From assembly GCF_004310325.1 (NCBI RefSeq), contig NZ_SIRT01000008.1, positions 1 to 64,000 on the forward strand: a stretch of 64,000 bases of DNA. The letters are read 5' to 3'. The position numbers and the translations under genes are program-made. Below, one piece after another: positions 72-62,476 of the stretch. The notes beneath the pieces were generated by a model. The model saw only the letters and a list, made by a program, of their open reading frames with translations. It was not told where the DNA came from and did not search any database. Numbering within the stretch: the stretch's first letter is position 1; every line of letters begins with the position of its first letter. Source of the stretch: Hyunsoonleella flava. Its GTDB lineage: Bacteria; Bacteroidota; Bacteroidia; Flavobacteriales; Flavobacteriaceae.

Positions 72-272
72 ATTTTAACAAATTTTTTTTGGTCGAATCA
101 TAGAATACGCGGGCTAAACCTTAAAGTTTTATCTTTTTAAAGCATCTTAAGGTTTAAACAAAAAAGCCTCAAAAAATTAGCCTCTAAAAATATTATCATC
201 AAAACTCAGGACAAAACAGGATAGTTTTTAATTCACATTTAAATAACTTTCCAATGATTTAACACAACTAAA
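72..272. other. Intergenic region with inverted repeat and PUL operator
   Basis: This 201-bp AT-rich spacer contains a perfect 9-bp inverted repeat (AAACCTTAA at 116-124 and TTAAGGTTT at 147-155, 22-nt loop), which may be a weak terminator or an element end. A tandem operator-like repeat at 205-224 is listed separately. No small gene is supported here. Confidence 0.5.
205..224 (+). promoter_or_regulatory. Tandem CAGGA-type operator, 48 bp before the gene at 273
   Basis: Two direct decamers, CTCAGGACAA and AACAGGATAG, abut with a 10-bp period. The same arrangement recurs upstream of most transcription units of the window. One-helical-turn spacing is what the two HTH motifs of an AraC-family monomer would contact; that binding is inferred. 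Confidence 0.6.
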
Positions 273-2189
273 ATGCAAAGACGAAACTTTATACAATTAT
301 CCACTCTAGCAGGAGTAGGATTATCACTTCCAATAGCAGGTATTTTAAGCTCCTGCGAAAGTCATCCAGAACATTCATTAGAATTTAAAAACCTAATTTC
401 AGGTTTGTTAAAGGATTGGAGTGATGGCATGTTAAAAGTGCAAATAAACAATCCATCAAACTTGGAGCTACACGGCGCTTTAGGCTGCCCATCTTGTTCT
501 CATATTCACGGACGTTGTATGGACGCTGTCTATCCGTTTTTATATATGGCAGACAAAACTGGTGATGAAAAATATTTAGAAGGTGCTAAATTAGTCATGC
601 TTTGGGCTGAAAATAATGTGTCTCAAGAGAATGGTGCTTGGACCGTAATAAGAAACCCAAAATCGTGGAAAGGTATTACTGTTTTTGGAGCCATTGCTTT
701 GGCTGAAGCATTGCATTACCATGGTCATGTTTTAGATGACGATACTTATGTAGCTTGGAAAAAGCGTTTAGAAAAAGCAGGACAATATATTTACGATACA
801 TTTACCATAGATTTTACAAATATAAATTATCCAGGAACAGCAGTTTACGGATTAAATTTAATAGGTAATGTTTTAGGTAGAGACGATTTAAAAGCCAAGA
901 GTAAAACATTAGCATCTCAAGTAAAAGCGTACTTTACAGCAAATGAAGGCCTGCTATTTGGAGAATGTAAAAAGAGCTCTAGTAAACTAAGCGAAAAAGG
1001 CCTACACGGTGTTGATTTAGGCTATAACGTAGAGGAGACTTTGAATAGTTTAGTAATGTATTCGCTCAAAGAAAAAGACGAAGAGTTATTACAAATCTTA
1101 ACTAAATCTCTAAATAGCCATTTAGAATTTATGTTACCCGACGGTGCTTGGGATAACAGCTGGGGTAATAGAATGTACAAATGGAGTTATTGGGGCAGTA
1201 GAACTTGTGATGGTAGTCAACCTGCATTCGGAATGATGGCACACATAAATCCAGCATTTGGAACAGCAGCTGTAAAAAACACAGAATTATTACAACGTTG
1301 CACTGCAGATGGATTAATTCATGGTGGTCCAGGTTTTATTGAGGCTGGCATTCCTGCATGTGTACACCATACGTTTACCCACGCAAAACCCTTAGCAGCA
1401 TTATTAGACCATTGGGATCATTTACCAGAAATTAATAAAAAAGCGGCATTGCCAAGAACTACTGCAGATGGCGTAAAACATTTTAAAGATTTAGATGTAT
1501 ACCTCTTTGCAAGAGGCGATTGGAGAGGAACTATAAGTGCCTACGATGCGGAGTACCATTATAAAGATGACTATCGTCAAGCTTCTGGTGGCGCTTTAGG
1601 GGTTTTATATCACAATAAAGTTGGTTTGTTATGTGCCGCAAGTATGGCAGAATACGCTTTAGTTGAAAAGAATAATCAGCAAGTACAACCTAATAAAGAT
1701 ATTTCATTTACACCAAGAATAGAAACGTTTAAAGAAGAAAAATGGTATACCAATTTATACGATTTACCAGCTACTGTTGAAAGTAAAGATGAAAACGGAA
1801 CTATTAAATTATTAGCTAATGTAGCTTTAAAAAATGTAGAAAGAGCAATTGTAGAAGAAACGGCATCCAATTTCAAAATTGGCTACACGTGTTCGGAAAA
1901 TGAAATAAACATTAAAGTAACAACTGAGCAAAATATTACAGCACCAACAGCATTTGTACTACCAATTATTTCTCCAAATAGTGAGGTTGTTACAAAAGTA
2001 AGTGATACAGAAATTACCATTAAAAAACCAGAGGGATTAGTTACTATTTCTGCAAACGCGCCAATTAAAACCAAAGAAATTAAAGGTAAAAGAACCTTCA
2101 ATATGGTTCCTGGTGCAGAAGCTATTCCATTTGAAGTGTTTTTTAACGAAGGAGAAAAAGAATTGCTTCTTTCAATAACAGTAAGTTAA
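273..2189 (+). CDS. Tat-exported lipoprotein, putative alpha/alpha-toroid polysaccharide lyase or dehydratase
   Basis: The 638-residue protein starts with a twin-arginine motif (RRNFIQ) followed by a hydrophobic stretch and a lipobox (ILSSC), so it is probably exported folded and lipid-anchored. Residues ~40-400 are rich in paired helices with Trp/Tyr/His-containing loops (CPSCSH near 71-76, DGAWDNSWGN and YWGSRTCDG near 290-315, HHTFTHAKP near 365). This looks like the (alpha/alpha) toroid of lyases and unsaturated-uronyl hydrolases. Residues ~480-638 are beta-rich, as in the C-terminal sandwich of such lyases. It cannot be assigned to a PL or GH family by eye. Ulvan loci of Formosa encode toroid lyases and an oligosaccharide dehydratase, and this gene could be a counterpart. 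It is convergent with the AraC gene (4-bp gap) and has its own operator, so it is probably monocistronic. Confidence 0.55.
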   Translation: MQRRNFIQLSTLAGVGLSLPIAGILSSCESHPEHSLEFKNLISGLLKDWSDGMLKVQINNPSNLELHGALGCPSCSHIHGRCMDAVYPFLYMADKTGDEKYLEGAKLVMLWAENNVSQENGAWTVIRNPKSWKGITVFGAIALAEALHYHGHVLDDDTYVAWKKRLEKAGQYIYDTFTIDFTNINYPGTAVYGLNLIGNVLGRDDLKAKSKTLASQVKAYFTANEGLLFGECKKSSSKLSEKGLHGVDLGYNVEETLNSLVMYSLKEKDEELLQILTKSLNSHLEFMLPDGAWDNSWGNRMYKWSYWGSRTCDGSQPAFGMMAHINPAFGTAAVKNTELLQRCTADGLIHGGPGFIEAGIPACVHHTFTHAKPLAALLDHWDHLPEINKKAALPRTTADGVKHFKDLDVYLFARGDWRGTISAYDAEYHYKDDYRQASGGALGVLYHNKVGLLCAASMAEYALVEKNNQQVQPNKDISFTPRIETFKEEKWYTNLYDLPATVESKDENGTIKLLANVALKNVERAIVEETASNFKIGYTCSENEINIKVTTEQNITAPTAFVLPIISPNSEVVTKVSDTEITIKKPEGLVTISANAPIKTKEIKGKRTFNMVPGAEAIPFEVFFNEGEKELLLSITVS

Positions 2190-2193
2190 GGTA

Positions 2194-3084
2194 TTATTTT
2201 TTATAACTGGTTTTGCTTAGGTTTCTAAATTTACCGGGAGCTAAACCAGTTTTTCGCTTAAATAGTCTGTTAAAGTAAACATCAGATTCAAAGCCTAATT
2301 CAAAAGCAATTTCTTTTTGAGATTTATTGGAGTTCAGCAATAACTCTTTAGATTTTTCAATCTTTAACAATAAATGGTATTGCAGAGGAGAAAGTCCTGT
2401 TTGTTTTTTAAAATTGATTCTAAACTTAGAATAGCTAACTCCTAAATGAGAAGCAATTTGCATCAAATCAATAGTTGTGTTGATGTTTTTATACATCATG
2501 CTTTTAGCTTTGGAAACCAGCGAGTTTAGACTGTCTATATTGTTTCCTCCGCTTTTAATATTATACAAATCTGCCATAAGTTGAATACAAATACCAGATG
2601 CTAAACGCTGGTAACCATAAGGTTCTTCGTCATAAAGTTTATACAGTGCATTAAAATGATTTAAAATTGATGGTTTATTACATTTTGAAATAATAGGTTC
2701 GTCTGTGTTAAAAAAACCATTAGAGAGAAATTGTTTGGCGATATGCCCAGAAAAACCAACCCAACGCTCGGTCCAACCTGTTTCTACTTTAGGTCTATAG
2801 CGATGCCAAACACCCGGAAACAATAAAAACACATCACCATCGGATACATTTACTTGTCCAGTTGCTTTGCTTTCGAAAATACCCTGTCCCTTAGTGATTA
2901 AAACCACATGAAATTCATCTAAAACACGTCCTTTGTCCCATGTAAATATATATTGATCTGGATGGTCTTTAGAAGGATATTCAGAATGTTTTTCAATAAC
3001 ATTTCGTCCTAAATTGTTGATGTAAAACCCCCATAATGCATCTTTATCAGAGGTTATTAGGTATTTTCTGTATTTATTTTTCAT
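2194..3084 (-). CDS. AraC-family transcriptional regulator with cupin sensor domain
   Basis: The 296-residue cytoplasmic protein has an N-terminal cupin-like ligand domain (~35-115; FHVVLITKGQGIF then DGDVFLLFPGVWHRYRP). A C-terminal double helix-turn-helix follows (~195-292) with the AraC signature (IASHLGVSYSKFRINFKKQTGLSPLQ and IAFELGFESDVYFNRLFKRKTG, quoted here as two separate motifs). This is the RhaR/RhaS/AraC sugar-sensor architecture. It is the only transcription factor in the window and is divergent from the large rhamnosidase operon. It is therefore the natural candidate to sense rhamnose or a derivative and activate the locus, possibly through the tandem CAGGA repeats. No such repeat lies in front of its own start. 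Confidence 0.92.
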   Translation of the reverse strand: MKNKYRKYLITSDKDALWGFYINNLGRNVIEKHSEYPSKDHPDQYIFTWDKGRVLDEFHVVLITKGQGIFESKATGQVNVSDGDVFLLFPGVWHRYRPKVETGWTERWVGFSGHIAKQFLSNGFFNTDEPIISKCNKPSILNHFNALYKLYDEEPYGYQRLASGICIQLMADLYNIKSGGNNIDSLNSLVSKAKSMMYKNINTTIDLMQIASHLGVSYSKFRINFKKQTGLSPLQYHLLLKIEKSKELLLNSNKSQKEIAFELGFESDVYFNRLFKRKTGLAPGKFRNLSKTSYKK

Positions 3085-3258
3085 ATCATTTTGTGCAACT
3101 AATATATCAATTTGTCAATTGTTAATTAAAAATAAATGAAAGAAATTTACAAAGAGAATAAATAATTTAATACTGCCTTTCAGGAGAGAGCATGATACAT
3201 TTTACAATGCTTTTTACTTTATTTATTAATTCTTTTAACGAATTAGACTAAACATCAG
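3085..3258. promoter_or_regulatory. Divergent promoter region between the AraC gene and the large operon
   Basis: This 174-bp spacer separates the two divergent starts. It carries one decamer of the PUL-operator type (TTCAGGAGAG, 3179-3188). The preceding decamer (AATACTGCCT) barely fits, so the copy is degenerate compared with other units. No confident -33/-7 Bacteroidota promoter could be picked by eye. Confidence 0.4.
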
Positions 3259-6200
3259 ATGAAATCACTGCGTACCACCACATTTTCGCATTCATTTTTA
3301 TTGCTAGTATTAACGTTTGTATTGTTATGCTTGTCTTGTGAGCAAACGCGTTTAACAATTTCAGAATTAAAATGTGAATACCGTACAGATCCCTTGGGTA
3401 TAGATAATATGTCACCTAGATTGAGTTGGAAGCTATTTGATGTAAACAAAACTCGTGGTCAAAAACAAACGGCATTTCAAATTTTAGTAGCAAGTAGTTT
3501 GAGTGAACTTGAAGAAGATACTGCTGATGTTTGGAATTCAGGAAAAGTAAACTCCAATCAGTCGGTTAATATAAAATATAATGGAGCCAATTTAGAGTCT
3601 TCAAAACAATATTTTTGGAAAGTTAAGGTTTGGGATGGTTCAAATAATAATTCTCAATGGAGCGCACCCGCACATTTTTCAATGGGATTGTTAAAAGAAG
3701 CGGATTGGAAAGGCGAGTGGATTTACAAAAAAAATCAAAACAAAAAAGACCATAATTGGTATAGAAAGATTTTTTCTTTGGATAAAACACCGCAATCAGC
3801 CTTCGTTTATGTGGCTTCTTTTGGCTACCATGAGTTGTATGTAAACGGTAAAAAAGTGGGTGATGAGGTGATGAATCCTGTAAGTTCTTTTATGAAGAAA
3901 CGCTTGCCGTATCTCACATACGATATAAGCGATTATTTAGTAGAAGGCGATAATGTTATTGGTATTTGGCATGCCGCAGGTTGGGCAAGATGGGGACGTG
4001 TAAAAGCTTATTTTGACCCGCCTTTTGTATTCAAAGCCCAGGCTAATATTGATATAGGTGAAGAAAATATAGTCTTAGTTTCAGACACTTCTTGGAAAAG
4101 TAAAAAAAGCTATAGTGCTTATTATAGTTCTTGGGATATTTTAGATTTTGGTGGCGAAATTATTGATGAACGACTTCGTGAAGATGATTGGAATACTGCA
4201 GATTATGATGATAGTAATTGGGAAAATGCGGTTGTTTTTGATGAACAAGACATGCAAGATGTAGAGGTGGCTGACATAAATTTAGGTCCAAAAGGAGCTG
4301 TACGAGCACCGAGTACCGATGCTAACCCGCCTACAAGTAAGATAACCGCAACCTTAAGTGCGCAAATGGTAGAGCCACAAGTGAAGTACAAAGAAGTAAA
4401 CCCGATAGGGGTGTCTAAAAATGAAGATGGCAACTATGTAATTGACATGGGCGAAAACTATACTGGGTACTTTGAAATGAATCTCTTTAATGGAAAGGAA
4501 GGCGATACAGTTACTTTTGAAGTTGCCGACCATAAAGAGGTCGTTACATCTTGGGAACAAAGAAGTAAATACATATTTGACCAATCAGGAACAGGGCACT
4601 TTACCAACCGTTTTAACCTAGCAGGAGGAAGATGGGTAACCATTAGCGGCATAAACTACAAACCAGCATTAAAAGATATTAAAGGATATGTAATTACTAA
4701 TGATAGAAAGCAAATTAGTCAATTTGAAAGCTCTAGTCAATTACTAAATAAAATTTACCAAATTAATTTAAACACCTATATCGCCAATACTATTGATGGT
4801 ATTCTGGTAGATTGCCCACATCGTGAACGACGCGGTTGGGGAGAAGTAACTGTCGCTGCAATGTATGGGGATGCCTTACCAAATTTTGAAAGTGGTGCGT
4901 ACATGAATCAATACGCACAATTTATGCAAGATGCGCAAGCTGATGATGGTAAAATGCGAGCGGTAATCAACGGAGATGATTTTGAGTTTTTAATGTGGAT
5001 GGCAAACAGCCCAATTACTATTTGGGAAACTTACAGAATGTTAGGCGATAAAAAATTATTAGAAAACCATTATCCAACCTTACAAAAATGGATGCATTGG
5101 TTATATGAACATTCTGATTATGAGACAGGAGGTGCACTTAAAATAGGGAAACGAGGCACACTTGAATTTCCTGGTTTAGGCGACTGGTGCACGCCAAGGG
5201 GTAATTTTTGGAGTTCCAGTAATTCGCCAGAATCAGAACATTTTAACAATTGTGTGTACGCTTTTATGTTAGAGTCGGCATTAGAAATAGCTAAAGTTTT
5301 AGGTGAAGAAGAAGATGCTAAAATGTATGCTAGCCGTCTCGAAGTGCAACGTAAAGCGACTCACGAAAAAATATATGATGCCAATACAGGGAAGTACGGT
5401 GAGGGCCATCAGGTCAATCAAGCTTTTGCCTTAATTTCGGGAGTCACTCCTGAAACTGAACAGCAAAAGGTGTGTGACAATATGGTAGATCAGGTCCTTT
5501 ATAAATTTCCGTATTACGACACAGGAAGTTCTGGGCAAGCCTTGTACACGCGCTATTTTACAGAACACGGAGAGCGTATGGATTTAATTTATGAGCTACT
5601 TAAAGACAAGCGACACCCAAGTTATGGTTACTTTTTAGAGCAAGGTAAAACCGTATGGCCAGAACGTTGGTCTGCTATCGGGAATAGCCAAATACATACT
5701 TGTTACACGGGTATTGGAGGCTATTTTATAAAAGGATTTGCAGGGATTCGTCCAGATTCAGAGCATTTAGGGATGCAACATTTTATTGTAAAGCCTGCAC
5801 CTGTTGGCGATTTAACTTTTGCAAATACGGAGTACAAATCTATGTACGGCACTATTGTTTCAAATTGGAAAAAAGAAGCAGAAAGCGCCACATTTCATAT
5901 TGAAGTTCCAGTAAATACATCAGCAAAAATATACATTCCCGCGACTAAAAAGGAAGTGGTTTTTGAAGGTGAAAATATAGCAGAAAAATCTAAAGGTATA
6001 CAATACGTTGGTACTGAAAAGAGTGATGCTGTTGGTAATTATGTGATTTATAAAGTAGGTGCTGGAACATATAATTTTAAAGTTTCAGAATTACCAAAAG
6101 TGGCTTATCCTGACCCATTAAATAAGCCAGAAAACTTAGCCTTAATAGGGCGAATGAATGCTTCGTCTATGACCATTCAATCTGAAAAGCTACCCGTTTT

Positions 6201-6525: not shown

Positions 6526-6528
6526 GTC

Positions 6529-8865: not shown

Positions 8866-8881
8866 AATCCTATAGGATATT

Positions 8882-11353: not shown

Positions 11354-11355
11354 TT

Positions 11356-14640: not shown

Positions 14641-14656
14641 TTATAAATCATAAATA

Positions 14657-17029: not shown

Positions 17030-17059
17030 TGTTTTAAAAGCGAGTAATAAAATATTCTT

Positions 17060-18619: not shown

Positions 18620-18620
18620 A

Positions 18621-19709: not shown

Positions 19710-19727
19710 GCTGAACTAATTTTTACT

Positions 19728-20779: not shown

Positions 20780-20798
20780 CACTAAAAATAATATAAAT

Positions 20799-22349
20799 AT
20801 GGAAAGTAAAGGTCTCATAAAATTTTTATTAATACTTATCAGCGTATGTTGTACTAAATCATTTTATGCTCAAAGTTTCGAAATACTTGCAGACAATTGG
20901 ACAAAAAGAAGAGTAATTACAGATACCATAAAATCTGGTAATTTTATTTTAGGAGTAAATAGCAATGGCGGTGGTTATATTACCGAAGTTAGTATTCCAG
21001 GAATCGGAAACACCATGGGTGTTCAGGCACAAAAGTATGGTCGTGGTGGACAATCATCAATTCGAGATTTGGCTCGCGGGGGGCAATATAATCCAACCCA
21101 AGCAGGATTTAGTGATGAAGGTGGAACCGTATGTGAAGTGGTAAAAACTACTGAAGGTAAAATTGTTATCCCATCAAGAGGATGCGCTTTATATAATGGT
21201 GATGGGAAATTTGACTATACGCGATGGGAAAATATTGTTCCTGATCATCCACACATCATAGATAACAATAGTGATCAAGATAATATTGAGGAAGAAAATC
21301 TTTCTGTTGTAATTGATGGTAGAACTTTTACACATCAAGCTGCTGAAGTTCATAGTGATTTTGATTTTTATTGTGAATACGAAAATGTAAAAAACACAAT
21401 AAATTTAGATATACCAGCCATAAGACATTATTTAGAATATCGTTTTGTTCGTTCTTCTACACTACCCAATTCAGCCATGAGACAATTTAACACATCCGCT
21501 TTGAGTGCTGTTGGCAAGTGGAGTCCTGAAAAGCTCCAAGATGATATATCTACTCAATTTCCAGTGGGCACTCACCCCGGAAGTACCACTAATTTAAATT
21601 ATGTTAGCTATTCATGGAGTATAAGAACAGATGTAGCGATATGGAACCCGATTTACAGATATGCTCAAAAAAATGATGACTCTTGGGAAATAGTGGAACG
21701 TCAAGGGACTTTCAATGGCGATAACTCCAACTATAAACTAAGATTTATTGTAGCAGATTCCAATGATGAAAATAATGGTCATGCTTTAGGTTTTTACCTT
21801 CCAGATACCAATATAAACACTTTTGATGTTGTTGGTGTTAATGAATCGAATGGGTCGGAAGCATACAGGGACGACAGAACATTAGAAAATTTTTATTTAG
21901 ATATTCCTTATAGAACACCCACAATGTCTTGGATAGGTTTTAGAAAAAGATTTAAAGGTCTTATAGACAGGTCTATATTATCCGCTACAAATCCAGGAGT
22001 TTATGAAAAATTTCGTCAAGAAAGTATTCTTTTATATGGAACTCCAGCAGAAATCAAGACTGCATTTACGCAGTTGGATACCTATTATCAAAACCAACTG
22101 TCCACCTCTGAATTTTCTCCAAACCATAGTTCGCAATTTGAAATATATCCTAACCCAGCAAATTCGGATATTCATATAACACTCACATCTAGCGAATCAA
22201 AAATAGAAGTATTTAACCTTTTAGGGGTTAAAATTTATGATACTGTAGTGTTTTCAAAACAAACCACAATCCCAATACATCAATTTAAGACTACAGGTAT
22301 CTACATTGTTAGAGTTAATAATACCACAAAAAAAATAATAATTAATTAA
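20799..22349 (+). CDS. T9SS-secreted protein of unknown function
   Basis: The 516-residue protein has a signal peptide (cleavage near FYAQS) and a C-terminal type A T9SS sorting domain (~440-516: FEIYPNPANSDIHITL, then TTGIYIVRVNN). It should therefore be released or surface-attached. The body (~25-430) is not a family I recognise. It opens with SGNFILGVNSNGGGYITEVSIPG, faintly like the GGAIAYIS opening of the neighbour. It contains RGGQSSIRDLARGGQYNPTQ and several His/Asp-containing loops (HPHIIDNNSD, FTHQAAEVHSDFDFY, IRHYLEYRF). Location among rhamnosidases and sulfatases suggests an extracellular enzyme or binding protein acting on the intact polymer. Confidence 0.75.
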   Translation: MESKGLIKFLLILISVCCTKSFYAQSFEILADNWTKRRVITDTIKSGNFILGVNSNGGGYITEVSIPGIGNTMGVQAQKYGRGGQSSIRDLARGGQYNPTQAGFSDEGGTVCEVVKTTEGKIVIPSRGCALYNGDGKFDYTRWENIVPDHPHIIDNNSDQDNIEEENLSVVIDGRTFTHQAAEVHSDFDFYCEYENVKNTINLDIPAIRHYLEYRFVRSSTLPNSAMRQFNTSALSAVGKWSPEKLQDDISTQFPVGTHPGSTTNLNYVSYSWSIRTDVAIWNPIYRYAQKNDDSWEIVERQGTFNGDNSNYKLRFIVADSNDENNGHALGFYLPDTNINTFDVVGVNESNGSEAYRDDRTLENFYLDIPYRTPTMSWIGFRKRFKGLIDRSILSATNPGVYEKFRQESILLYGTPAEIKTAFTQLDTYYQNQLSTSEFSPNHSSQFEIYPNPANSDIHITLTSSESKIEVFNLLGVKIYDTVVFSKQTTIPIHQFKTTGIYIVRVNNTTKKIIIN

Positions 22350-29807: not shown

Positions 29808-29827
29808 TACAGGGTTATACAGGATAA
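29808..29827 (+). promoter_or_regulatory. Tandem CAGG operator before the sulfatase-rhaT unit
   Basis: The two abutting decamers TACAGGGTTA and TACAGGATAA have a 10-bp period, the same arrangement as at other unit starts. The nearest ATG (29852) is only 24 bp away, whereas 29918 is 90 bp away. Together with the lipoprotein signal this favours 29918 as the start of the following sulfatase. Confidence 0.6.
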
Positions 29828-29917
29828 AATCAAAAGAAAAGAAAATTAAATTTGAATTTTATTATGAAGGTTTTATCAATTAAAAGAAAAATAAATTTTT
29901 CTAAAGAATTATTATAT

Positions 29918-32404: not shown

Positions 32405-33280
32405 TCAGGGTAGTTCCCTGCATAAACTAATCTCTTTAAACTCAATATGCGCTGTAACATCGCCTGAATCGCTAGTGCCATAAGCACCATATCTAGAATA
32501 AACACGTTCTGTAGTATGATTATGTTCTATGAGTTTTTCGGTATCTCCAATTTTAATTTTTGAAAAGGCTGTACCAGAAGCATCATAACCAGTTTCGTAC
32601 ACAAAAGTATATTCTTGATTGTAATTAAGGGTTTTAAAATCTTTAACGTCTCTTCCTCCTCCTGTGTCAGTAGTGTATGGATTTATCGTGACATGTGTTT
32701 CTAACTTTATTTTATTACCTGAAGTTTTCATAGCATAAACTAAAAACTGTGCACTTTTGTTAGTGCTACCGGCTTCTTCTCCACTTAGAATATCACCTCC
32801 AGCATGAGACTGAATAATGCAGGTATTTCCATCGCTTAAATCTATAATCTTAAGTATGCCAGAAAGAATGGTTTTTTTACTAGTTCCATGAGAAAGTGTT
32901 TTAAAAAATCGTTCTACTCTGGTTTTTGTACCATCATAACGTATTGCACCACCAGTAATTTTATAGCTTCCCCAGCCAGCAGATATATTTTCATAACCTC
33001 CAACAGTACTATCGGTTCTACAATCTAATGTACCTTTATTATTAGGGATTGAAACATCATCGCAAGATTGTGATTGGGAAGCGCTAGGTCCCAGATTTGG
33101 AAAATCAGAAGTGTCATCACAGTTTTGCGCATTGCTTGGGTTTTCAGGAGTATCGGGCTTATCGTCATTTGGTTCTTCAGTCATTGGTTCATTTACATCT
33201 GATGTACTAGAACATGAGACTATAATGGTGAATAATGAAACTAAACTCATAATAAATAGGATACGAAACCTCATGGTCAA
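32405..33280 (-). CDS. Jelly-roll polysaccharide lyase lipoprotein, PL28 (ulvan lyase)-like
   Basis: The 291-residue lipoprotein has a lipobox (IIVSC, Cys 23) and then an acidic Pro/Asp/Glu linker (~24-60), typical of a surface-exposed lipoprotein. The C-terminal ~210 residues look like a beta-jelly-roll lyase: RVERFF (R121, E123), CIIQSHAGG (Q157, H159) and YSRYGAY (Y261, R263, Y267) correspond to the RxE, QxH and YxKxGxY motifs of the PL7/PL28-type fold. Cys 87 and Cys 287 could form a disulfide. Short length and linker fit a PL28 ulvan lyase cutting between sulfated rhamnose and a uronic acid, but the exact PL family is recalled by eye only. It is transcribed alone on the minus strand with its own operator. 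Confidence 0.65.
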   Translation of the reverse strand: MTMRFRILFIMSLVSLFTIIVSCSSTSDVNEPMTEEPNDDKPDTPENPSNAQNCDDTSDFPNLGPSASQSQSCDDVSIPNNKGTLDCRTDSTVGGYENISAGWGSYKITGGAIRYDGTKTRVERFFKTLSHGTSKKTILSGILKIIDLSDGNTCIIQSHAGGDILSGEEAGSTNKSAQFLVYAMKTSGNKIKLETHVTINPYTTDTGGGRDVKDFKTLNYNQEYTFVYETGYDASGTAFSKIKIGDTEKLIEHNHTTERVYSRYGAYGTSDSGDVTAHIEFKEISLCRELP

Positions 33281-33332
33281 TATTTAAACGCGGATCTTAG
33301 AATCAGCAAGGTACACCTGTAAATTTATTTTC

Positions 33333-33352
33333 TTATCCTGTGCTGTCTTGAT
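33333..33352 (-). promoter_or_regulatory. Tandem operator for the lyase gene
   Basis: Read on the minus strand, decamers ATCAAGACAG and CACAGGATAA abut with a 10-bp period. The site ends 52 bp before the lyase ATG at 33280. It is nearly the same as the copy before the GH3 gene (TACAAGACAG-TTCAGGATAG). Confidence 0.62.
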
Positions 33353-33364: not shown

Positions 33365-33384
33365 TCCATGGAGGTACAGGATGC
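33365..33384 (+). promoter_or_regulatory. Tandem-type operator for the GH106 gene at 33446
   Basis: A strong decamer TACAGGATGC (33375-33384) is preceded at 10 bp by a weaker TCCATGGAGG. It ends 61 bp before ATG 33446. The asymmetry of one strong and one weak half is shared with the copy at 36290-36309. Confidence 0.5.
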
Positions 33385-33445
33385 TATTCTTTGTGAATGA
33401 CTTTATTTTCAAACTATTTAGATAATAGTACTTAAATAGCTTATT

Positions 33446-36289: not shown

Positions 36290-36309
36290 TGCATGATGGT
36301 ACAGGATAA
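36290..36309 (+). promoter_or_regulatory. Tandem-type operator before the GH78-GH43-sulfatase unit
   Basis: Strong decamer TACAGGATAA (36300-36309) is preceded at 10 bp by TGCATGATGG, which keeps the CA.GA core. It ends 72 bp before ATG 36382. Confidence 0.55.
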
Positions 36310-36381
36310 TAATCTTATACATATCTAGTACTTTCAACAATTATATTATCAAAACTAAAAAATAAAGAAAAGGCCATTGCG

Positions 36382-41057: not shown

Positions 41058-41095
41058 TTTATCAAAATATTGAAAATAATAATAAGTTGAGACAA

Positions 41096-42676: not shown

Positions 42677-42689
42677 ATTTATTTTCATT

Positions 42690-43466: not shown

Positions 43467-43653
43467 AAGCGTTAAGATTGTGCAATGTCTTTGGCAAGTC
43501 AGTGTTAACGCTTAGATTTTAGGCGTTTAGTGAAAGGTAAGTGCAGAGGGAAGCCCATATCCATGTCCCAATTTACTATGGGGTGCGGTGTGAGGACCTG
43601 TAGCGTAAAGCTTGACCTGACCATAGTAGGGTAACGCTAAAATTAATATTTAA
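43467..43653. other. Convergent intergenic region with nested inverted repeats
   Basis: This 187-bp spacer between two converging genes looks more GC-rich than its surroundings. It holds a 9-bp inverted repeat AAGCGTTAA/TTAACGCTT (43467-43475, 43505-43513), ACTATGG/CCATAGT (43575-43581, 43621-43627) and a further TAACGCT (43632-43638). A bidirectional terminator or a remnant of a structured element is possible. No ORF or known RNA was recognised. Confidence 0.4.
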
Positions 43654-44391
43654 CTACTGTTTTACTTTTTTGCTCGCCCAATGTATAGCACCTATTATAT
43701 GTTTTCTAAATATGGGGTTTTGGTATAATTCTGGTCTATGGCCTAATTGGGTTTGAAAAATGCGCCCGCCATCAAATACATGATACCAAGCTATCGGGTG
43801 GTCGCCCATACTCATATCTTTCCCATTAAAGTTCTTCATTGTAATAGAGTTTTCGTCTAAAGAAATAAGAACGTTAACATTTTCGCGCGGACTTTTATTT
43901 AATGAGTACCATTCATCTTCCCAATCTATGCTCTCAATATCTAAGTGCTCGGTTGCAGGATGTGTGTTATCCTCAATAATAATTTTACCTTTTTGTACGC
44001 CCGAATGGCCTATAAATCTTGCACCAATTAAATCGCCAAACCATGGCCATTTTAATTCGGTTACTGTAGCGGAATGTACGCCAACAAATCCGCCACCAGA
44101 TTTAATATACCCCTTAAAGGACATTTGTTGAGTTTCAGTCAAAATGTCTTTATTAGTTAAAAGGAAAACTACAACGTCAAACTTGTTTAAAATACCTTTT
44201 GTAAAGAATGTGGCATCCTCTGTAAAGGTACACTTCCAATTATTCTCTTCCGCCATCTCAACAAAACCTTTAATAGCTTCGGGTAAACAAGTGTGCCTGT
44301 AATGTCCGGTTTTAGTGAAAACCAATACATTCTGACCGAACCCAGGACTATTAAAGCCAATAACTAGAAGTATAATAATGAGAATTCTCAT
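43654..44391 (-). CDS. Exported ThuA-like protein
   Basis: The 245-residue protein has a signal peptide (cleavage near PGFGQ) and then a ThuA/class I glutamine-amidotransferase-like fold: VLVFTKTGHYRHTCLPEAI, FDVVVFLLTNKD, GGGFVGVHSATVTELKWPWFGDLIGARF (split here only by reading), DHPIAWYHVFDGGRIFQTQLGHRPE. ThuA-like proteins travel with Gfo/Idh oxidoreductases and DUF1080 proteins in keto-sugar metabolism, and their exact reaction is unclear. It is convergent with the DUF1080 gene and has its own operator on the minus strand. Confidence 0.88.
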   Translation of the reverse strand: MRILIIILLVIGFNSPGFGQNVLVFTKTGHYRHTCLPEAIKGFVEMAEENNWKCTFTEDATFFTKGILNKFDVVVFLLTNKDILTETQQMSFKGYIKSGGGFVGVHSATVTELKWPWFGDLIGARFIGHSGVQKGKIIIEDNTHPATEHLDIESIDWEDEWYSLNKSPRENVNVLISLDENSITMKNFNGKDMSMGDHPIAWYHVFDGGRIFQTQLGHRPELYQNPIFRKHIIGAIHWASKKVKQ

Positions 44392-44681
44392 TGTGTTTAA
44401 AATGTTTAATTGTAAAAATAAGTCAATTTAAACGTTTATTGTATCCTGGTGTAACATGATGTAAATAGTATTTTAACAAATAAAGTAACTGATATAATTT
44501 AATAAACAGATTTTTGAGGCTTATGTCTTAGAGCAGTTGCATGTTGCTGCTCTAATGGAAATTAGATACAAAAATATGATGAACTTAAATTTTAAGTAAA
44601 ATATGTCTCAAATAGTATATGTTTAGTTGGTAGTTAACATCTAATTATAGAATTTTGAAAGACTTGAGGTAAAAAACTATA
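44392..44681. other. Divergent intergenic region (ThuA / GH39-like)
   Basis: This 290-bp AT-rich spacer has the minus-strand operator at 44441-44460 and a 7-bp dyad AGAGCAG...CTGCTCT with a 10-nt loop at 44530-44553. The dyad has no following T-run, so it looks more like an operator than a terminator. No tandem CAGGA repeat precedes the plus-strand unit starting at 44682, so that unit may be regulated differently. Confidence 0.45.
44441..44460 (-). promoter_or_regulatory. Tandem-type operator for the ThuA gene
   Basis: On the minus strand the decamers read ATCATGTTAC and ACCAGGATAC, with the strong half nearer the gene. The site ends 49 bp before ATG 44391. Confidence 0.5.
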
Positions 44682-46370: not shown

Positions 46371-46386
46371 AAAATTAAGCGGACTT

Positions 46387-47805: not shown

Positions 47806-47833
47806 ACAATTCAATTTTTTTTAGTATATTAAA

Positions 47834-50812: not shown

Positions 50813-51055
50813 AAAAAGTCTGATTGGCTTTTTAGGAGCCTGACTGGCGGGGTTAATGCGAGCAAGTCTGTTAACACAAACACTATACGAACCCCTTAAG
50901 CAATTTGGCAATAACAGTACGAATACAAACTAAACAAAACTATAATACAGGTGGTTTGTGCGGTTTAATATACGCTTTATCGAATTTATTCAAAAATCCA
51001 GTAAGGTACGGGACAGTCTATGCTTCAATTTAATATAACTTTAAAAAAAATTGAT
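50813..51055. promoter_or_regulatory. Intergenic region with degenerate operator before the CBM6 enzyme
   Basis: This 243-bp spacer contains a weak tandem copy, TCCAGTAAGG-TACGGGACAG (50997-51016), ending 39 bp before ATG 51056. The alternative upstream start (51020) would lie only 3 bp from it, which supports 51056. The rest has an AGTCTGATTGGC / GCCTGACTGGCG imperfect repeat near 50817-50851 and no gene. Confidence 0.45.
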
Positions 51056-54013: not shown

Positions 54014-54090
54014 GATAGTATTAAAGCGAATTAAATGTAAAGCAAACCAGTTCGCTATACTTATTTTATTGATTCATAACAAAGCAACAC

Positions 54091-54963
54091 TCATTTTTTC
54101 TTTTTCTTTGAAGGTTCAGGATGATTATTGACGTAATCTTCTAAAAGAGATTTCACTACTTCCAGACCCCCTGCTTTTAGTCCATTATTTACATTAGCAC
54201 CTGTAATCCAATACAATACCATGCCAGCATCAGAGCAATCCCATTTGCCTTTTTGGAAATTCACTATATTATCTATTTCAGCAATATTCCCAATAGTCCA
54301 AATGAGTCGTATTCTTGGATCAGCATGGTTTTTCGCCCAATCCCATTTTTCGTGATCCAGTTTTAAATTAATGTTTTGGTCAGGAATACGTACTTCTTCA
54401 ATACCAAAATCTAAAATTTGTTGCCAAGTATAAAAATCCCCGGCATTATCATTAGCGGGATGATGGGTTACTACTTTAACAAATTTGTGCTTCTCCTTAG
54501 GTGTTTTTTGTAAAGCCATCCCTATAATATCGGGTTCGCCAGCTTCTATAATCCATAGAGGATCTTCTGCGGTAGAAGCATTTATGGCCCAACATAAATC
54601 GTTAATAGTTTCTTCTTTTTGCCATATGGCGTCATAAAACGTCAAATTATTAAAACCGCCCCAGCGTCTAGCTGTCATATCACAAGCTATTTGCATTAAA
54701 TGATGTCTTTCTTTTTCGGCTTTTTCAGAAATGCGATCATCCCTTACTAAATCACAACTATGGGAATAATGCACTAACCTGTTCTCTAATCCAGATGCTC
54801 TTAAAAGTGCAATAGAAATTGAAGTTCCTCCTAAATCGTCAGGATCTGGAGAGTTGCCGTCAGCTACAATAGCAATACGGCCATTAGGAGGGTTTATGTT
54901 TTGGGAAAAGTTTGGCAATGCAGTTAGCAAAGCGAATATTATGATCGATACTCTAAACGTCAT
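54091..54963 (-). CDS. Exported nucleoside-hydrolase-like protein
   Basis: The 290-residue protein has a signal peptide (cleavage near PNFSQN). Near the mature N-terminus it shows IAIVADGNSPDPDDLGG, the Asp-rich calcium site typical of inosine-uridine nucleoside hydrolases. Further motifs are WIIEAGEPDIIGMAL and VVTHHPANDNAG. The C-terminus ends in a lysine run. Nucleoside hydrolases cut N-ribosides, but exported relatives in polysaccharide loci are uncharacterised and may act on another glycosidic bond. It is divergent from SusC and has its own tandem operator, so it appears to belong to the regulon. Confidence 0.72.
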   Translation of the reverse strand: MTFRVSIIIFALLTALPNFSQNINPPNGRIAIVADGNSPDPDDLGGTSISIALLRASGLENRLVHYSHSCDLVRDDRISEKAEKERHHLMQIACDMTARRWGGFNNLTFYDAIWQKEETINDLCWAINASTAEDPLWIIEAGEPDIIGMALQKTPKEKHKFVKVVTHHPANDNAGDFYTWQQILDFGIEEVRIPDQNINLKLDHEKWDWAKNHADPRIRLIWTIGNIAEIDNIVNFQKGKWDCSDAGMVLYWITGANVNNGLKAGGLEVVKSLLEDYVNNHPEPSKKKKK

Positions 54964-55038
54964 GGTCAGCGAAGTTTTTTTAATGATTTAAATGTGATAA
55001 TAATTCATAGCTAAAAATAGACTAGATACTGTTATTTA

Positions 55039-55058
55039 GTAACCTGTTGTATCCTGTG
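55039..55058 (-). promoter_or_regulatory. Tandem operator for the nucleoside-hydrolase-like gene
   Basis: On the minus strand, CACAGGATAC and AACAGGTTAC abut with a 10-bp period. The site ends 75 bp before ATG 54963. Confidence 0.58.
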
Positions 55059-55096
55059 TGCTAAAAAAATATAGGTTTTTGTAAGAATTGAAATCA

Positions 55097-55130
55097 TACA
55101 GGACAGCCCATAACGGGTAGTACAGGATAC
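55097..55130 (+). promoter_or_regulatory. Operator cluster for the SusC/SusD unit
   Basis: TACAGGACAG and TACAGGATAC lie 24 bp apart start to start, not 10 bp. The intervening decamer TAACGGGTAG (55111-55120) is a weak half. It ends 56 bp before ATG 55187, within the common range. Confidence 0.55.
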
Positions 55131-55186
55131 TTGATAAAATTTTAAGAAATATTTTAGAAACCTAAAAACAAATTAACTTAAGATTT

Positions 55187-58100: not shown

Positions 58101-58228
58101 TCTCTAATACCAGGTTAATAGACCCAGAAGCAAGTAATTTTGGTCGTAATAACCTTTTACAAGGCTATATTAGTGCGCAATATCCTAACCCAAGAGTTAT
58201 AACACTTGGTTTAAATGTAACTTTTTAA
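55187..58228 (+). CDS. SusC-like TonB-dependent outer-membrane transporter
   Basis: The 1013-residue protein has a signal peptide (cleavage after MSFAQ) and a carboxypeptidase-regulatory-like domain (~33-112, VTGTVTADGQPLPGATVVVKG). A TonB-box region follows (DEVVVIGYGTQRKSDLTGSV), then a plug (~120-235, with ALQGRASGVQVTQ and DASSIAIYGARGANGVV) and a 22-strand-type barrel ending in VITLGLNVTF. It imports oligosaccharides through the outer membrane with the SusD-like lipoprotein encoded 12 bp downstream. It is the only SusC in the window, so it presumably carries the rhamnose-rich oligosaccharides. Confidence 0.97.
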   Translation: MKLKTKLNAPPNFKKFRLLTIFLFSCVAMSFAQTVTGTVTADGQPLPGATVVVKGTTTGTSTDFDGNYTINASAENTLIFSYVGYSTKEVVVGNQSTINVTLEQDNALDEVVVIGYGTQRKSDLTGSVSSVSSEDITALPVARVDQALQGRASGVQVTQVNGAPGAGTVIRVRGGNSITGSNEPLWVIDGIIVGTNFNLNNINSNDIQSIEILKDASSIAIYGARGANGVVLVTTKSGTGAGTGKPQISVNLYTSSQMLPELPDRLNQREQIEFTNEHANFRGVAIPFPDDPSTYPNNDWVDLVLGTAPIYNADVSISGATDNVNYYTSINYFNQEGIVKSSGLEKYIFRTNLDLKLSDKVKAGFRLNYSRLEQDNPLASFSQAAFGILRTQPAFNDDGSFNGFDEVVGSPFNNPLAAIALNTNETFTNNLLATVYLEYSPAPNWTIRSTFSPEFNNTKQNRFSSSQLPGLLAIGDFGQGTASVRTVNTNGWNNENTIQYQSDFGEDHSITALAGASFQKVSTEIAQAEAFGITSDATGFNNLNNSDPTRSIVSSDFTGFQFASFFGRLNYSYKDKYLLTLVGRSDGSSRFAEGNKYAFFPSIAAAWKITEEDFMQDQDVFQDLKLRASWGKSGNQAIDPYSTLGLLTGANTTLNGAEVPGLTLGRPANPNLQWETTSSFDIALEASLFGGRVFTEFNYYYKETEDLLLERTIPRQTGFNSQLQNIGALKNTGWELLVNSTNVSTSNFNWNSTVTLSANKNEVLDLGGVDFIDIVADPILGSGNTRLIVGESVPTFVGVRYLGTWKSQEEIDASGRTDPQIVGGSHFEDLNGDGIASTEDAVVLGSPFPDLIFGIENNFSYKNWDFSFYFQGTQGNEVYNLSMRNNYFNRGETVKFGDIRNRWTVDNPTSNIPRAGGDNVTNTPPNSEYVEDGSHIRLKTVRLAYNFPTDKMGLNGIKNATVYLSGTNLLLFSNTRLIDPEASNFGRNNLLQGYISAQYPNPRVITLGLNVTF

Positions 58229-58240
58229 AAAAAAAATAAT

Positions 58241-59824
58241 ATGAAAACAAAAAATATAATTTTATACGTCTTTATGGTTTTCGCATGTTTTAGTTGCGAA
58301 AGCTTTTTAGAAGAAGATCCAAAAGCACTTATTTCTCCTGAAACATTTTTTGCTTCGGAAAATGATGCAAGACAAGCGGTTCAGGGTATGTATGCCATTT
58401 TAAAGAACAACTCTTTATACGGTCAAGTAGGGCTGGATCATTTTTACGATAATGGTGCAGATATTATTGAACCTAACCGTTCTGCAAATTTTGTTCAGCC
58501 AATAGGAAACTACACACTGAATGAGGCCTTGGCAGACGTGTCTGTTCAAAAAATGAGTGTTTCAGATACTTGGAAAGACCTTTATCGAATTATACTAAAT
58601 GCTAATGTTATTATAGAAAGAGTAACAGATAATGAGGATGTAGGGGATGCCAGTGTTCGTACTGATATCATTGCAGATACTAGATTTATCAGAGGCTTAT
58701 GCTACTGGCATATTACTAACCTTTGGGGGGATGCACCATACTATACGGAGGTATTAACTTTGGAAGAAATCGGATCTTTAGGTAGAACTCCAGAAGCTAC
58801 AATCATCGCAGGTGTTCTTGAGGATTTACAGTTTGCCCAAGATAACTTGCAAACTGCTTACACTGGCGATCAAAGTGGTAGAGCCTCAAAATGGGCCGCA
58901 GCTATTGTAATGGCTAAAATTTACATGAAGCAACAACAATGGCAGCAAGGTTTGGACAAATGTTTAGAAATTATAAACCAATCTCCTCATAGATTATTAG
59001 ATTCTTATAATGAAGTGTTTGATCAATTTAACGAATACAATGATGAAATTATTTGGTCTTTAGATTTTGCTCGAGATATTAATAGTCAGTTTGATCCAGC
59101 ATTCCCAGGGAGATCATTCGCTGGTAACAATAACTGGCGCCCAAGCATGTTTAATCCTCGTTTAAGAGATGAGCCAGCAAATTCAGATGAAAGAGCTGCA
59201 TTGGGAGATGCATTAGCTGCTAGAGGTGAAGCGTTTAATGGTACTGGATTACAGGTAGCTTCTAAAGACTTTGCTGAGAAATTCCCGATGAATGATTTAA
59301 GAAGAGAGCTAAATATAGTGGATAACTATTTAGGGTTTGACTTAAATTTTCCATACATGGCAAAATTCTGGAATTTGGAGTTAGATAGATCTCCAAGGTT
59401 TAATCACTCTGATAACAGAATGGTATTTCGTTTAGCAGATGTGCATTTAATGGCTGCAGAATGTGAGAACGAGCGTCCAGGAGGAAACCCAAATACAGCT
59501 TTCGAATATATTAGAAAAATTAGAGAGCGTGCCTTTGCGACACAAGGAGAAGCTGAAGCTATTTTAGGTTTAAGCCAACAAGAATTTAGAGAAGCAATTT
59601 ATGATGAGCGTAAGTGGGAGTTAGCGGCAGAGATGCACAGAAGATATGATTTGATACGATGGGGTATTCTATTAGATGTTGTCCAAAATTTAGAATACCG
59701 TTTTTGGACTCCAGCTGATAATATTAGACCTTATCACGTAAAATTACCAATTCCACTTCAGGAACTAGAAAATAATCCTGCATTATTAGAGTCAGATCCA
59801 ACTAATAATGGATATAGAAATTAA
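58241..59824 (+). CDS. SusD-like surface glycan-binding lipoprotein (RagB/SusD)
   Basis: The 527-residue lipoprotein (CFSC, Cys 19) begins its mature part with ESFLEEDPKALISPETFFASENDA, a typical SusD opening (quoted in part). TPR-like helices and the C-terminal KWELAAEMHRRYDLIRWG motif fit the RagB/SusD family. It caps the SusC barrel and binds glycans at the cell surface. It forms a two-gene unit with SusC and is closed by a strong terminator. Confidence 0.97.
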   Translation: MKTKNIILYVFMVFACFSCESFLEEDPKALISPETFFASENDARQAVQGMYAILKNNSLYGQVGLDHFYDNGADIIEPNRSANFVQPIGNYTLNEALADVSVQKMSVSDTWKDLYRIILNANVIIERVTDNEDVGDASVRTDIIADTRFIRGLCYWHITNLWGDAPYYTEVLTLEEIGSLGRTPEATIIAGVLEDLQFAQDNLQTAYTGDQSGRASKWAAAIVMAKIYMKQQQWQQGLDKCLEIINQSPHRLLDSYNEVFDQFNEYNDEIIWSLDFARDINSQFDPAFPGRSFAGNNNWRPSMFNPRLRDEPANSDERAALGDALAARGEAFNGTGLQVASKDFAEKFPMNDLRRELNIVDNYLGFDLNFPYMAKFWNLELDRSPRFNHSDNRMVFRLADVHLMAAECENERPGGNPNTAFEYIRKIRERAFATQGEAEAILGLSQQEFREAIYDERKWELAAEMHRRYDLIRWGILLDVVQNLEYRFWTPADNIRPYHVKLPIPLQELENNPALLESDPTNNGYRN

Positions 59825-59858
59825 TTAGCAGTAAGTTTTTTAATTGTTTAGTTTTGAG

Positions 59859-59890
59859 AAGGCTAGAGATATTTATCTCTAGCCTTTTTT
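59859..59890 (+). terminator. Rho-independent-type terminator after SusD
   Basis: A perfect stem GGCTAGAGAT (59861-59870) / ATCTCTAGCC (59875-59884) with a 4-nt loop is followed by TTTTTT (59885-59890). It ends the SusCD transcript. Confidence 0.85.
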
Positions 59891-59892
59891 CA

Positions 59893-59912
59893 TACAAGAC
59901 AGTTCAGGATAG
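59893..59912 (+). promoter_or_regulatory. Tandem operator before the GH3 gene
   Basis: TACAAGACAG and TTCAGGATAG abut with a 10-bp period, immediately after the SusD terminator. The site ends 55 bp before ATG 59968. Confidence 0.62.
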
Positions 59913-59967
59913 GGAAAGAAAAAATATCTTTTAGTTTAGTAGTCGAATATTGGTTAAATTAAATTAA

Positions 59968-62142
59968 ATGAAAAAATACCTCTTCTTACTTATTACAGTT
60001 AGCTTATTGTTTACAGGTTGTCAGTCTAGCACATCAAATTCAGCAGGAAATGATAAAGATCAAGAAATAAATGAAAAAGTCGAAGCACTATTAAGTCAAA
60101 TGACCTTAGACGAAAAAATAGCTGAAATGACGCAAGATGCTCCTGCAAATGAACGGTTAGGAATTCCATATATGAAGTATGCAGAAGCACTTCATGGGGT
60201 TTGGCTTGTACTTGATTATTATGGTAACACCACTGTATATCCGCAAGCTATTGCAGCAGCTTCTACTTGGCAACCTGAATTGATTAAAAAAATGGCTTCA
60301 CAAACAGCTCTAGAAGCGAGAGCTTTAGGAGTTACCCATACGTATTCGCCTAATTTAGATGTTATTTCTGGTGATCCAAGATATGGTAGGGTAGAAGAAT
60401 CTTATGGAGAAGATCCTTACTTGGTGTCTAGAATGGGTGTTGCATTTATTCAAGGGTTACAAGGTATGGGTGATGAAAGATTTGATGAGAATCACGTAAT
60501 AGCAACTGCAAAACATTTTATTGGGTATCCAGAAAATAGAAGAGGTATCAATGGTGGATTTAGTGATATGTCAGAACGTCGTTTAAGAGAGGTTTACTTA
60601 CCACCTTTTGAGGCTGCTATAAAAGAAGCAAAGGTAGGTTCTGTTATGCCAGGGCATCAAGATTATAATGGAGTTCCAAATCACATGAACACTTGGTTGT
60701 TAAAAGATATTTTAAGAGATGAACTAGGTTTTGATGGTTTTATTGTTTCTGATAATAATGACGTCGCAAGGTTAGGAACTATGCATTTTATTGCTGAAAC
60801 TAGAACTAAATCAGCTCTTTTAGGCTTAAAAGCGGGTGTTGATATGGATTTAGTTATTGGAAAGAACGAAAAACTAGCAGCATACAATTCTAAAGTGTTA
60901 AAAGATACGGTTACACAGAATCCAGAGTTGTTAAAGTATATAGACAAAGCTACCTCTCGTATTTTAACCGCAAAATATAATTTGGGTTTATTCGACACTA
61001 AACCAAAAGAGATTGATACTAAAACAGTATATGCTGGTAAAAAAGAACATCAAGATTTTTCTTATGAAATGGCAAAAAAAGCAATTATTTTATTAAAAAA
61101 TGATAATAACGTATTGCCCTTGGATATGTCTAACATAAAATCTTTAGCTGTAATTGGTCCAAATGCTCATGAAAATAGACCTAAAAAAGGAACCTATTCT
61201 TTATTAGGAGGCTACTCCGGTTTACCACCATTTTATGTTTCTGCTTTAGATGGAATAAAAGCTAAAGTAGGTGATAAAGTAAAAATTAATTACGCAAAAG
61301 GTTGTGATTTATTAAGTAATTCTAAAGCAGGTTTTCCCGCAGCAATTGCAGCAGCAAAAAAGTCTGATGCAGTTGTTCTAGTTATTGGAGGTTCAAGAAA
61401 AACTGGTGGTGAAGGTGTAGATAGAGCCGATTTAAATTTATATGGTGTGCAGCAAGAATTGGTAAAAGCAATCCATAAAACAGGCAAGCCTATTGTTGCT
61501 GTTTTAATTAATGGTAGACCATTATCAATCAATTATGTTGTAGAAAATATCCCATCAATTTTAGAAACATGGTATTTAGGTATGCGTTCTGGAGATGCTA
61601 TTGCAGATGCTATTTTTGGTGATGTGAATCCAGGAGGTAAGCTTACAGTATCTTTTCCACGATCTGTAGGGCAGGTTCCTGTAACGTATTTAGAGCGTCC
61701 AGATTTTATAGGTTCGGGTAAAGGCTTATTTAAAAATGCAGATAAATCTCCATTATTCCCTTTTGGGTATGGTTTAAGTTACACTACGTTTGAATATGGC
61801 GAACCAAAATTAGATAATACTACTATTAATGCTGATGGATCAACCTCGGTTTCAGTTGAAGTTACCAATAAAGGCAATAGAGTTGGAGATGAAGTGGTTC
61901 AAATGTATGTGCGTGATGATTATGCATCCGTGGGTAGATATTTAAAACTGCTTAAAGGTTTTCAACGCATCACACTAAAACCTGGAGAAACCAAAACGGT
62001 AAGTTTTAAGCTTGGTTTTGATGAGTTAAATGTATTAAATCAAAATATGAAAAAAGTGGTAGAGCCTGGGACATTTACCATTTCTGTTGGGGCATCGTCT
62101 TTAAAAGAACATCTGAAAACGGTTAAGTTGACAGTTAAATAA
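59968..62142 (+). CDS. GH3-family glycosidase lipoprotein
   Basis: The 724-residue lipoprotein (FTGC, Cys 18) has the GH3 barrel (MTLDEKIAEMTQ, SPNLDVISGDPRYGRVEESYGEDPYL in part, KHFIGYPENRRGINGG). The nucleophile is likely D262 in IVSDNND. The alpha/beta sandwich (~370-560, GGSRKTGGEGVDRADL) and C-terminal Fn3-like domain (~630-720) complete the beta-glucosidase/beta-xylosidase layout. GH3 beta-xylosidase activity would suit xylose in ulvan, but beta-glucosidase is equally possible by sequence. It is transcribed alone between two operators. Confidence 0.95.
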   Translation: MKKYLFLLITVSLLFTGCQSSTSNSAGNDKDQEINEKVEALLSQMTLDEKIAEMTQDAPANERLGIPYMKYAEALHGVWLVLDYYGNTTVYPQAIAAASTWQPELIKKMASQTALEARALGVTHTYSPNLDVISGDPRYGRVEESYGEDPYLVSRMGVAFIQGLQGMGDERFDENHVIATAKHFIGYPENRRGINGGFSDMSERRLREVYLPPFEAAIKEAKVGSVMPGHQDYNGVPNHMNTWLLKDILRDELGFDGFIVSDNNDVARLGTMHFIAETRTKSALLGLKAGVDMDLVIGKNEKLAAYNSKVLKDTVTQNPELLKYIDKATSRILTAKYNLGLFDTKPKEIDTKTVYAGKKEHQDFSYEMAKKAIILLKNDNNVLPLDMSNIKSLAVIGPNAHENRPKKGTYSLLGGYSGLPPFYVSALDGIKAKVGDKVKINYAKGCDLLSNSKAGFPAAIAAAKKSDAVVLVIGGSRKTGGEGVDRADLNLYGVQQELVKAIHKTGKPIVAVLINGRPLSINYVVENIPSILETWYLGMRSGDAIADAIFGDVNPGGKLTVSFPRSVGQVPVTYLERPDFIGSGKGLFKNADKSPLFPFGYGLSYTTFEYGEPKLDNTTINADGSTSVSVEVTNKGNRVGDEVVQMYVRDDYASVGRYLKLLKGFQRITLKPGETKTVSFKLGFDELNVLNQNMKKVVEPGTFTISVGASSLKEHLKTVKLTVK

Positions 62143-62476
62143 AACAATTTTACTCTTAAGATAACTATAAAAATGGTGGATTATAACTTTTACTCAACAG
62201 TCTGAAGAGCGATAGATGAATCGTGGATTGTCAGTGAGATTTTCCAAAAGATGATATTTTTTTCTATTTAATCGAAGTAGTATTTAAAAAAGTAACTGCT
62301 TAAAATCATGTAAGAATAATATTTTTCTTATTATAAGAAAACACTTTTTTAATTAGGTTTTGAACACAAAAATTAAATTTTAAAAGTAAAAATCCTGATA
62401 AACAGGATACAACAGGATAGGTGACACCAAAAATTTTATTTATTTTAAACGAATAAATAACTAAAACTTCATAATT
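62143..62476. other. Intergenic region between GH3 and the lectin-like gene
   Basis: This 334-bp AT-rich spacer ends with the best-conserved tandem operator (62401-62420). Around 62313-62333 there is an AT-only imperfect hairpin followed by a T-run, possibly the GH3 terminator. No ORF of interest was found. Confidence 0.45.
62401..62420 (+). promoter_or_regulatory. Best tandem operator: two near-identical decamers
   Basis: AACAGGATAC and AACAGGATAG abut exactly, differing only in the last base. The site ends 56 bp before ATG 62477. This copy best defines the consensus. Confidence 0.68.

Follow-up and report, generated by a model that had tools for sequence, protein, structure and literature searches.

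A PUL-wide tandem decamer at the ulvan genes of Hyunsoonleella flava is probably the operator of a GntR/LacI-type regulator

The tandem 10-bp repeat that recurs through the window (the whole stretch analysed here, 64,000 nucleotides, C62:1-64000) is a real, directional, PUL-wide regulatory site of H. flava, and it is probably (at a rough probability of 0.75) the operator of a GntR/LacI-type regulator that would bind it and most likely act as a sugar-dependent activator. The earlier note had proposed a PUL-wide operator from the window, and the site was found to reach well past it, since the sites, including those beyond the window, total about 30 intergenic places on four contigs.

The pattern CAGGAYA-N3-CAGGAYA, searched as CAGGAYANNNCAGGAYA with at most 2 mismatches, occurs nine times in the window, compared with 0.96 +/- 1.03 times in shuffled sequences, and none of 100 shuffles reached nine. 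All nine matches are intergenic and oriented toward a gene start 37-76 nt away, which bears out the earlier description of the sites as intergenic, gene-directed and close to starts. A scoring matrix that takes in the -7 box, and whose 110 training sites all come from other genomes, recovered at a cut-off of at least 10 bits all twelve of the sites proposed earlier (ten sites plus two weak ones), at 207, 3181, 29810, 33334(-), 33367, 36292, 44442(-), 50999, 55040(-), 55113, 59895 and 62403; position 197 also scores, as a shifted echo of the 207 site. The features of the window are as follows.

207..251, + strand: operator CAGGACA-N3-CAGGATA with -7 box, TAACTTTC; exact match, 32.0 bits; before the 273-2189 gene.
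2194..3084, - strand: AraC-type regulator (Pfam); the candidate reader of the earlier note, judged here an unlikely one.
3181..3225, + strand: operator with 2 mismatches and -7 box; 20.6 bits; before the alpha-L-rhamnosidase gene run at 3259 (Pfam).
29810..29854, + strand: operator with 2 mismatches and -7 box, TAAATTTG; 22.4 bits; before the sulfatase/RhaT unit (Pfam).
33306..33350, - strand: operator with 1 mismatch and -7 box; 25.2 bits; before 32405-33280(-).
33367..33411, + strand: operator with weak first half CATGGAG and -7 box, TATTTTCA; 16.5 bits; before the Glyco_hydro_106 gene 33446 (Pfam).
36292..36336, + strand: operator with 2 mismatches and -7 box, TACTTTCA; 24.8 bits; before the alpha-L-rhamnosidase gene 36382 (Pfam).
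44413..44458, - strand: weak operator with 2 mismatches; 11.8 bits; before the ThuA-like gene 43654-44391(-) (Pfam).
50999..51043, + strand: weak operator CAGTAAG-N3-CGGGACA; 21.1 bits; at ORF 51020.
55012..55056, - strand: operator with 1 mismatch and -7 box, TATTTTTA; 29.3 bits; before 54091-54963(-).
55113..55157, + strand: operator with weak first half and -7 box, TATTTTAG; 17.0 bits; before the susC gene 55187 (Pfam).
59895..59939, + strand: operator with 1 mismatch and -7 box; 29.8 bits; before the GH3 gene 59968 (Pfam).
62403..62447, + strand: operator CAGGATA-N3-CAGGATA; exact match, 32.2 bits; before 62477, whose product is an ulvan-lyase beta-trefoil domain protein (Pfam).

The -7 box of the 44442 site is off by one, lying one base further away, and that of the 50999 site falls within called ORF 51020, so that the true start of this ORF is probably downstream. 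At 55097-55130 the proposed site is present but irregular: the good -7 box belongs to 55113-55129, and an extra CAGGACA near 55097 lies 24 nt upstream of the second half of that site. Within the window, the matrix scan gave no site at the AraC gene, 44682, rhaM 63442 or 63785, nor at 20799, if the latter is a separate transcription unit.

Across the genome (3.81 Mb, 63 contigs), the exact pattern occurs 8 times versus 0 for the reversed pattern, and with at most 2 mismatches 84 times versus 32. Sorting by gene context was applied to the 26 matches with 0-1 mismatch, leaving out 54 two-mismatch matches outside the fetched stretches; 7 of the 26 lie within genes and 19 are intergenic, and all 19 belong to ulvan-linked loci, namely the ulvan regions of C62 and C56 plus single sites on C2 and C34. 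By these 0-1-mismatch sites, the motif is not equally frequent at housekeeping genes, the outcome that the earlier note had named as refuting its reading. The exact site on C2 lies 49 nt before a PL28 ulvan lyase gene (Pfam 3.7e-118; PDB 6d2c, an ulvan lyase), and the exact site on C34 lies 95 nt upstream of an SDR gene, behind which come UxuA and UxaC (a glucuronate operon). Genes behind the other sites include those for alpha-L-rhamnosidases, sulfatases and SusC proteins, for BNR_4 and PL28 ulvan-lyase-type proteins, and for an Aldolase_II+SDR rhamnose enzyme. In four relatives (L108, L112, L115, L119), the homologue of the last C56 gene adjoins that of the window gene 273-2189; because of this adjacency, C56 and C62 are probably neighbours, which would give an ulvan locus of about 200 kb, the chromosome order of the two contigs being taken from these relatives. 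Searches for a published description of the motif among open-licence PMC papers, a scope that takes in neither subscription papers nor RegPrecise logos, found none.

The operator is shared within the family. The exact site is present in 45 of 299 family genomes (own included), with 108 matches versus 12 for the reversed pattern. Seven motif-rich relatives supplied 20 stretches of 20 kb, picked because exact matches are present in them; all 52 sites there at no more than 1 mismatch are intergenic, and many sites in these relatives precede orthologues of the same ulvan genes. Longer arrays were also seen, with three decamers in G070 and G110 and six CAGGAYA-like decamers in G184 (L151:8915-8971, before a susC homologue).

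The position of the repeat relative to the promoter is rigid. Conservation is higher in the second half-site than in the first among 26 own-genome sites and 110 sites of relatives, and a TAnnTT -7 box starts exactly 20 nt after the repeat in 65% of the own and 68% of the foreign sites, whereas the remaining offsets from 11 to 32 stay at or below 15%. Taking the flavobacterial sigma-A box at -12 to -5 (PMC9723704), the repeat spans about -49 to -33 with its centre near -41, a layout that would resemble that of a class-II activator. A -33 TTG is seen in at most 0.7% of sites, an absence that is partly built in because the half-site itself fixes those bases.

The proposed reader of this site is encoded outside the window, as a pair of adjacent genes and a third paralogue.

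C62:110382-111428 and 111498-112544: GntR/LacI-fold regulator pair, 46-49 kb past the window on the same contig.
C56:131633: third GntR paralogue.

The pair is divergent from the rhamnose catabolic operon, and sites at 112893(-) and 113090(+) lie in between. PF00392, the GntR winged helix-turn-helix, scores above the Pfam cut-off in all three paralogues, and there are PDB sequence matches to YvoA and the AraR DNA-binding domain. Peripla_BP_3 falls just below the Pfam cut-off in two of the three, with no match in the third; in an AlphaFold model of one of the pair (30-sequence alignment, mean pLDDT 90.5, pTM 0.73), Foldseek places the C-terminal domain as LacI-type, with LacI, CcpA, PurR and RbsR as the best PDB matches and 385 matches at E<=0.001.

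Candidate regulators were compared over 80 genomes, comprising the 45 with an exact site and 35 controls (hand-picked, large, motif-free genomes in handle order, with G013 passed over). A close GntR orthologue (E <= 1e-110) is present in 38 of the 45 versus 10 of the 35 (Fisher p 6e-7), and in 14 of 14 genomes (own included) that have at least three exact sites, of which 9 have the AraC and 10 the hybrid two-component (HTCS) orthologue. Seven motif genomes are without a close orthologue: six have one exact match each, as by chance, and of the two matches in the seventh, G064, one lies next to a 44% homologue. Among the ten controls that do have one, eight carry a degenerate site (at most 2 mismatches) 39-68 nt before a rhamnose aldolase/dehydrogenase gene, G125 carries such a site before another gene, and the 20-kb stretch of G134 contains none. 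Since close orthologues are linked to rhamnose genes, their co-occurrence with sites at rhamnose promoters could also be a matter of gene neighbourhood. In named genomes, the regulator-query loci come mostly from organisms such as Algibacter (Flavobacteriaceae), Hyunsoonleella and Polaribacter.

The same comparison bears on the AraC-type protein 2194-3084, which the earlier note had favoured and which would bind the repeat with one HTH per half-site. This protein sits among the sites, and its orthologue is found in 11 of the 45 motif genomes versus 1 of the 35 controls (E<=1e-60, Fisher p 0.01), but none was found (E > 1e-60) in the other 34, among them 5 of the 14 genomes with at least three exact sites, including the two richest relatives, G070 (7) and G265 (8). 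Its own gene has no site in the matrix scan, the literature gives direct repeats of the AraC family a period of 21 bp (PMC3870299) as opposed to 10 here, and a period-10 repeat lies near the gene at 0 of 14 HTH_18 loci examined in the own genome. On these counts the AraC-type protein is very improbable as the reader, and the GntR pair outdoes it on co-occurrence, gene neighbourhood and period. Counting both groups, its orthologues were seen in 11 other genomes of the 80 searched, and the gene is without a CAGGAYA site.

A hybrid two-component regulator (C56:118609-122670; sensor propeller, kinase, receiver and HTH_18 domains) that would bind the repeat and sense ulvan oligosaccharides is equally hard to credit. 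It adjoins the ulvan genes of C56, and orthologues at 45% identity or more occur in 15 of the 45 motif genomes versus 2 of the 35 controls (Fisher p 0.003); against it, 30 of the 45 have none at this identity, and no match at E <= 1e-200 was obtained in G070, G265, G196 and G132 (7, 8, 3 and 3 exact sites; seven candidates scored per genome). Described HTCS motifs have a spacing of about 21 bp (PMC3878776), and at the eight own-genome HTCS loci (L126-L133) a 22-bp direct repeat lies near the gene in 3 and a 10-bp one in 1, the former as expected for HTCS operators. With its period of 10, the site does not belong with the AraC-family or HTCS operators of about 21 bp, and both proteins were rejected as readers on co-occurrence and period. 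Just upstream of this HTCS gene are alginate-locus-like genes (C56:106939-118556), judged by N-termini and gene order only. Of the five OmpR/PhoB-type regulator matches in the genome, C2 and C34 have one each, at least 55 kb from the sites there, and neither C62 nor C56 has any. Periods of 10-11 bp are described for DeoR-type regulators (PMC3870299).

The strongest support for a GntR protein as the reader comes from tandem decamers beside distant paralogues. At ten distant-paralogue loci (32-43% identity), no intergenic site with at most 2 mismatches was found; two of them, L173 and L174, have CAGAACA/CGGAACA repeats that score about 20 bits in the matrix. In a set of 49 distant-paralogue loci, which are part, not all, of the more distant GntR matches, 31 have a period-10 tandem 8-mer in intergenic DNA no more than 150 bp from the GntR gene, and each other period from 7 to 24 occurs at 0-3 loci; the remaining 18 have no tandem decamer at the threshold. 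When a -7 box 20 nt downstream is added, 19 of the 49 loci qualify at period 10 and 0-2 at periods 8, 9 and 11-14. In the far intergenic DNA of the same loci, which has 3.7 times more bases, 8 of the 49 have the tandem 8-mer at period 10, and 0-9 at other periods. In the own genome, period-10 repeats occur in 0 of 14 HTH_18 loci examined and in 5 of 103 other intergenic regions. An extension toward other families gave a positive result only in part: of 15 chosen loci, eight lack the period-10 repeat with the -7 box and 7 have it, as compared with 2 loci for each of the periods 8, 9 and 11. Of those seven, three come from other families of the class and four from within the same family.

The spelling of the half-site also appears to vary with the recognition helix. 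Three half-site classes, CAGGAYA, CAGAACA and CTRGTAG, were set by hand, the spellings being read first and then compared with the proteins. At the residue after SRDTV/SRDTI, the 25 CAGGAYA-class proteins shown (23 close orthologues and the two own proteins) all have E, and the 14 CTRGTAG-class proteins all have L or M. In the CAGAACA class, 6 of 8 proteins have F, while V stands there in L173 and L174; the C56:131633 type, to which L220 also belongs, has F despite neighbouring CAGGACA sites. Half-site spelling also goes with differences in the wing. Because this covariation follows clades and has exceptions, it is suggestive only and not independent evidence.

Combined, these results are consistent with a mechanism in which each of two DNA-binding domains would take one CAGGAYA half-site on the same helix face, and the GntR regulator, once bound to a sugar released from ulvan, would most likely activate sigma-A promoters; the ligand is proposed to be rhamnose or a derivative, or a uronate for the C56 paralogue. 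Activation is the more likely mode because the repeat centred near -41 replaces the -33 element, with the -7 box following 20 nt later. GntR and LacI-type sugar regulators usually repress. The GntR family also includes the Bacteroides sugar regulators FucR and ManR (a table in PMC3878776), and a GntR protein could instead bind the site as a repressor over the -33 region and be released by sugar; this is rather unlikely here, given the rigid 20-nt spacing to the -7 box, which suits an activator replacing the -33 contact, whereas a repressor tolerates more varied positions.

It is possible, though doubtful, that the scheme extends to two sugars. Bacteroidota GntR/LacI chimeras would then activate from -41 tandem decamers with a helix-to-half-site code, and in ulvan degraders the rhamnose- and uronate-linked paralogues would share operators, such that a regulon of about 30 promoters senses both sugars of the ulvan disaccharide; the rhamnose-linked paralogue would go with CAGGATA half-sites and the uronate-linked one with CAGGACR. 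This idea draws on a single base in the second half-site and on where the third paralogue stands in the gene order. In hand-read counts that leave out four named rhamnose loci, the second half-site has C at 6 of 7 uronate-operon sites versus 3 of 19 rhamnose-operon sites (Fisher p 0.002), with G163 uncounted, where a uronate operon is present and has no site with at most 2 mismatches before it. The exception among the uronate-operon sites is G265, which is without a uronate-type paralogue at E <= 1e-30, and in G044, G145, G132 and G070 such a paralogue lies directly before the uronate operon.

In Bacillus subtilis, AraR represses from a palindromic operator. The AraR subfamily is defined by its two-domain architecture (PMC4494728), and the regulator described here is like AraR in having a GntR winged helix-turn-helix, a GalR/LacI-type C-terminal domain and a link to sugar catabolism; its operator, by contrast, is a 10-bp tandem direct repeat at about -41 rather than a palindrome, and it is probably an activator. 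Because of the direct repeat, the regulator is termed AraR-like in architecture and is not filed as AraR. Activation from direct repeats would be unusual for this architecture, as most GntR sugar regulators repress and the sites of GntR proteins are generally palindromes (PMC5320631 and PMC4494728). MocR-type activators (GabR, TauR, PdxR) also place a GntR domain on direct repeats, such as CTGGACYTAA for TauR (PMC5320631), and activate, often from divergent gene arrangements, but have an aminotransferase-fold C-terminus where the fold here is LacI-type. NanR, NagQ and FarR (FadR/HutC subfamilies) are GntR proteins that bind direct repeats, TGGTATAW being one example (PMC4494728), with other C-terminal domains and other repeat units. 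The operators of Bacteroides HTCS and of the AraC-type RhaR are direct repeats at polysaccharide or rhamnose genes (PMC3878776, PMC3870299), but these are read by an AraC-type protein and have a period of about 21 bp. A survey of GntR motifs includes one Bacteroidetes regulator among those analysed, in three other subfamilies (PMC4494728, in the portion cited).

How marine flavobacteria regulate their algal-polysaccharide loci has been little mapped. If the proposed reading is true, a monosaccharide-linked regulator would command the locus of about 200 kb together with a distant lyase gene and uronate genes, and control would not lie with an oligosaccharide-sensing HTCS, which is the default assumption. 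The tandem decamer followed by 20 nt and a -7 box would then serve as a signature for annotating the regulons of this GntR subfamily, and the recognition-helix variants would provide a set for testing.
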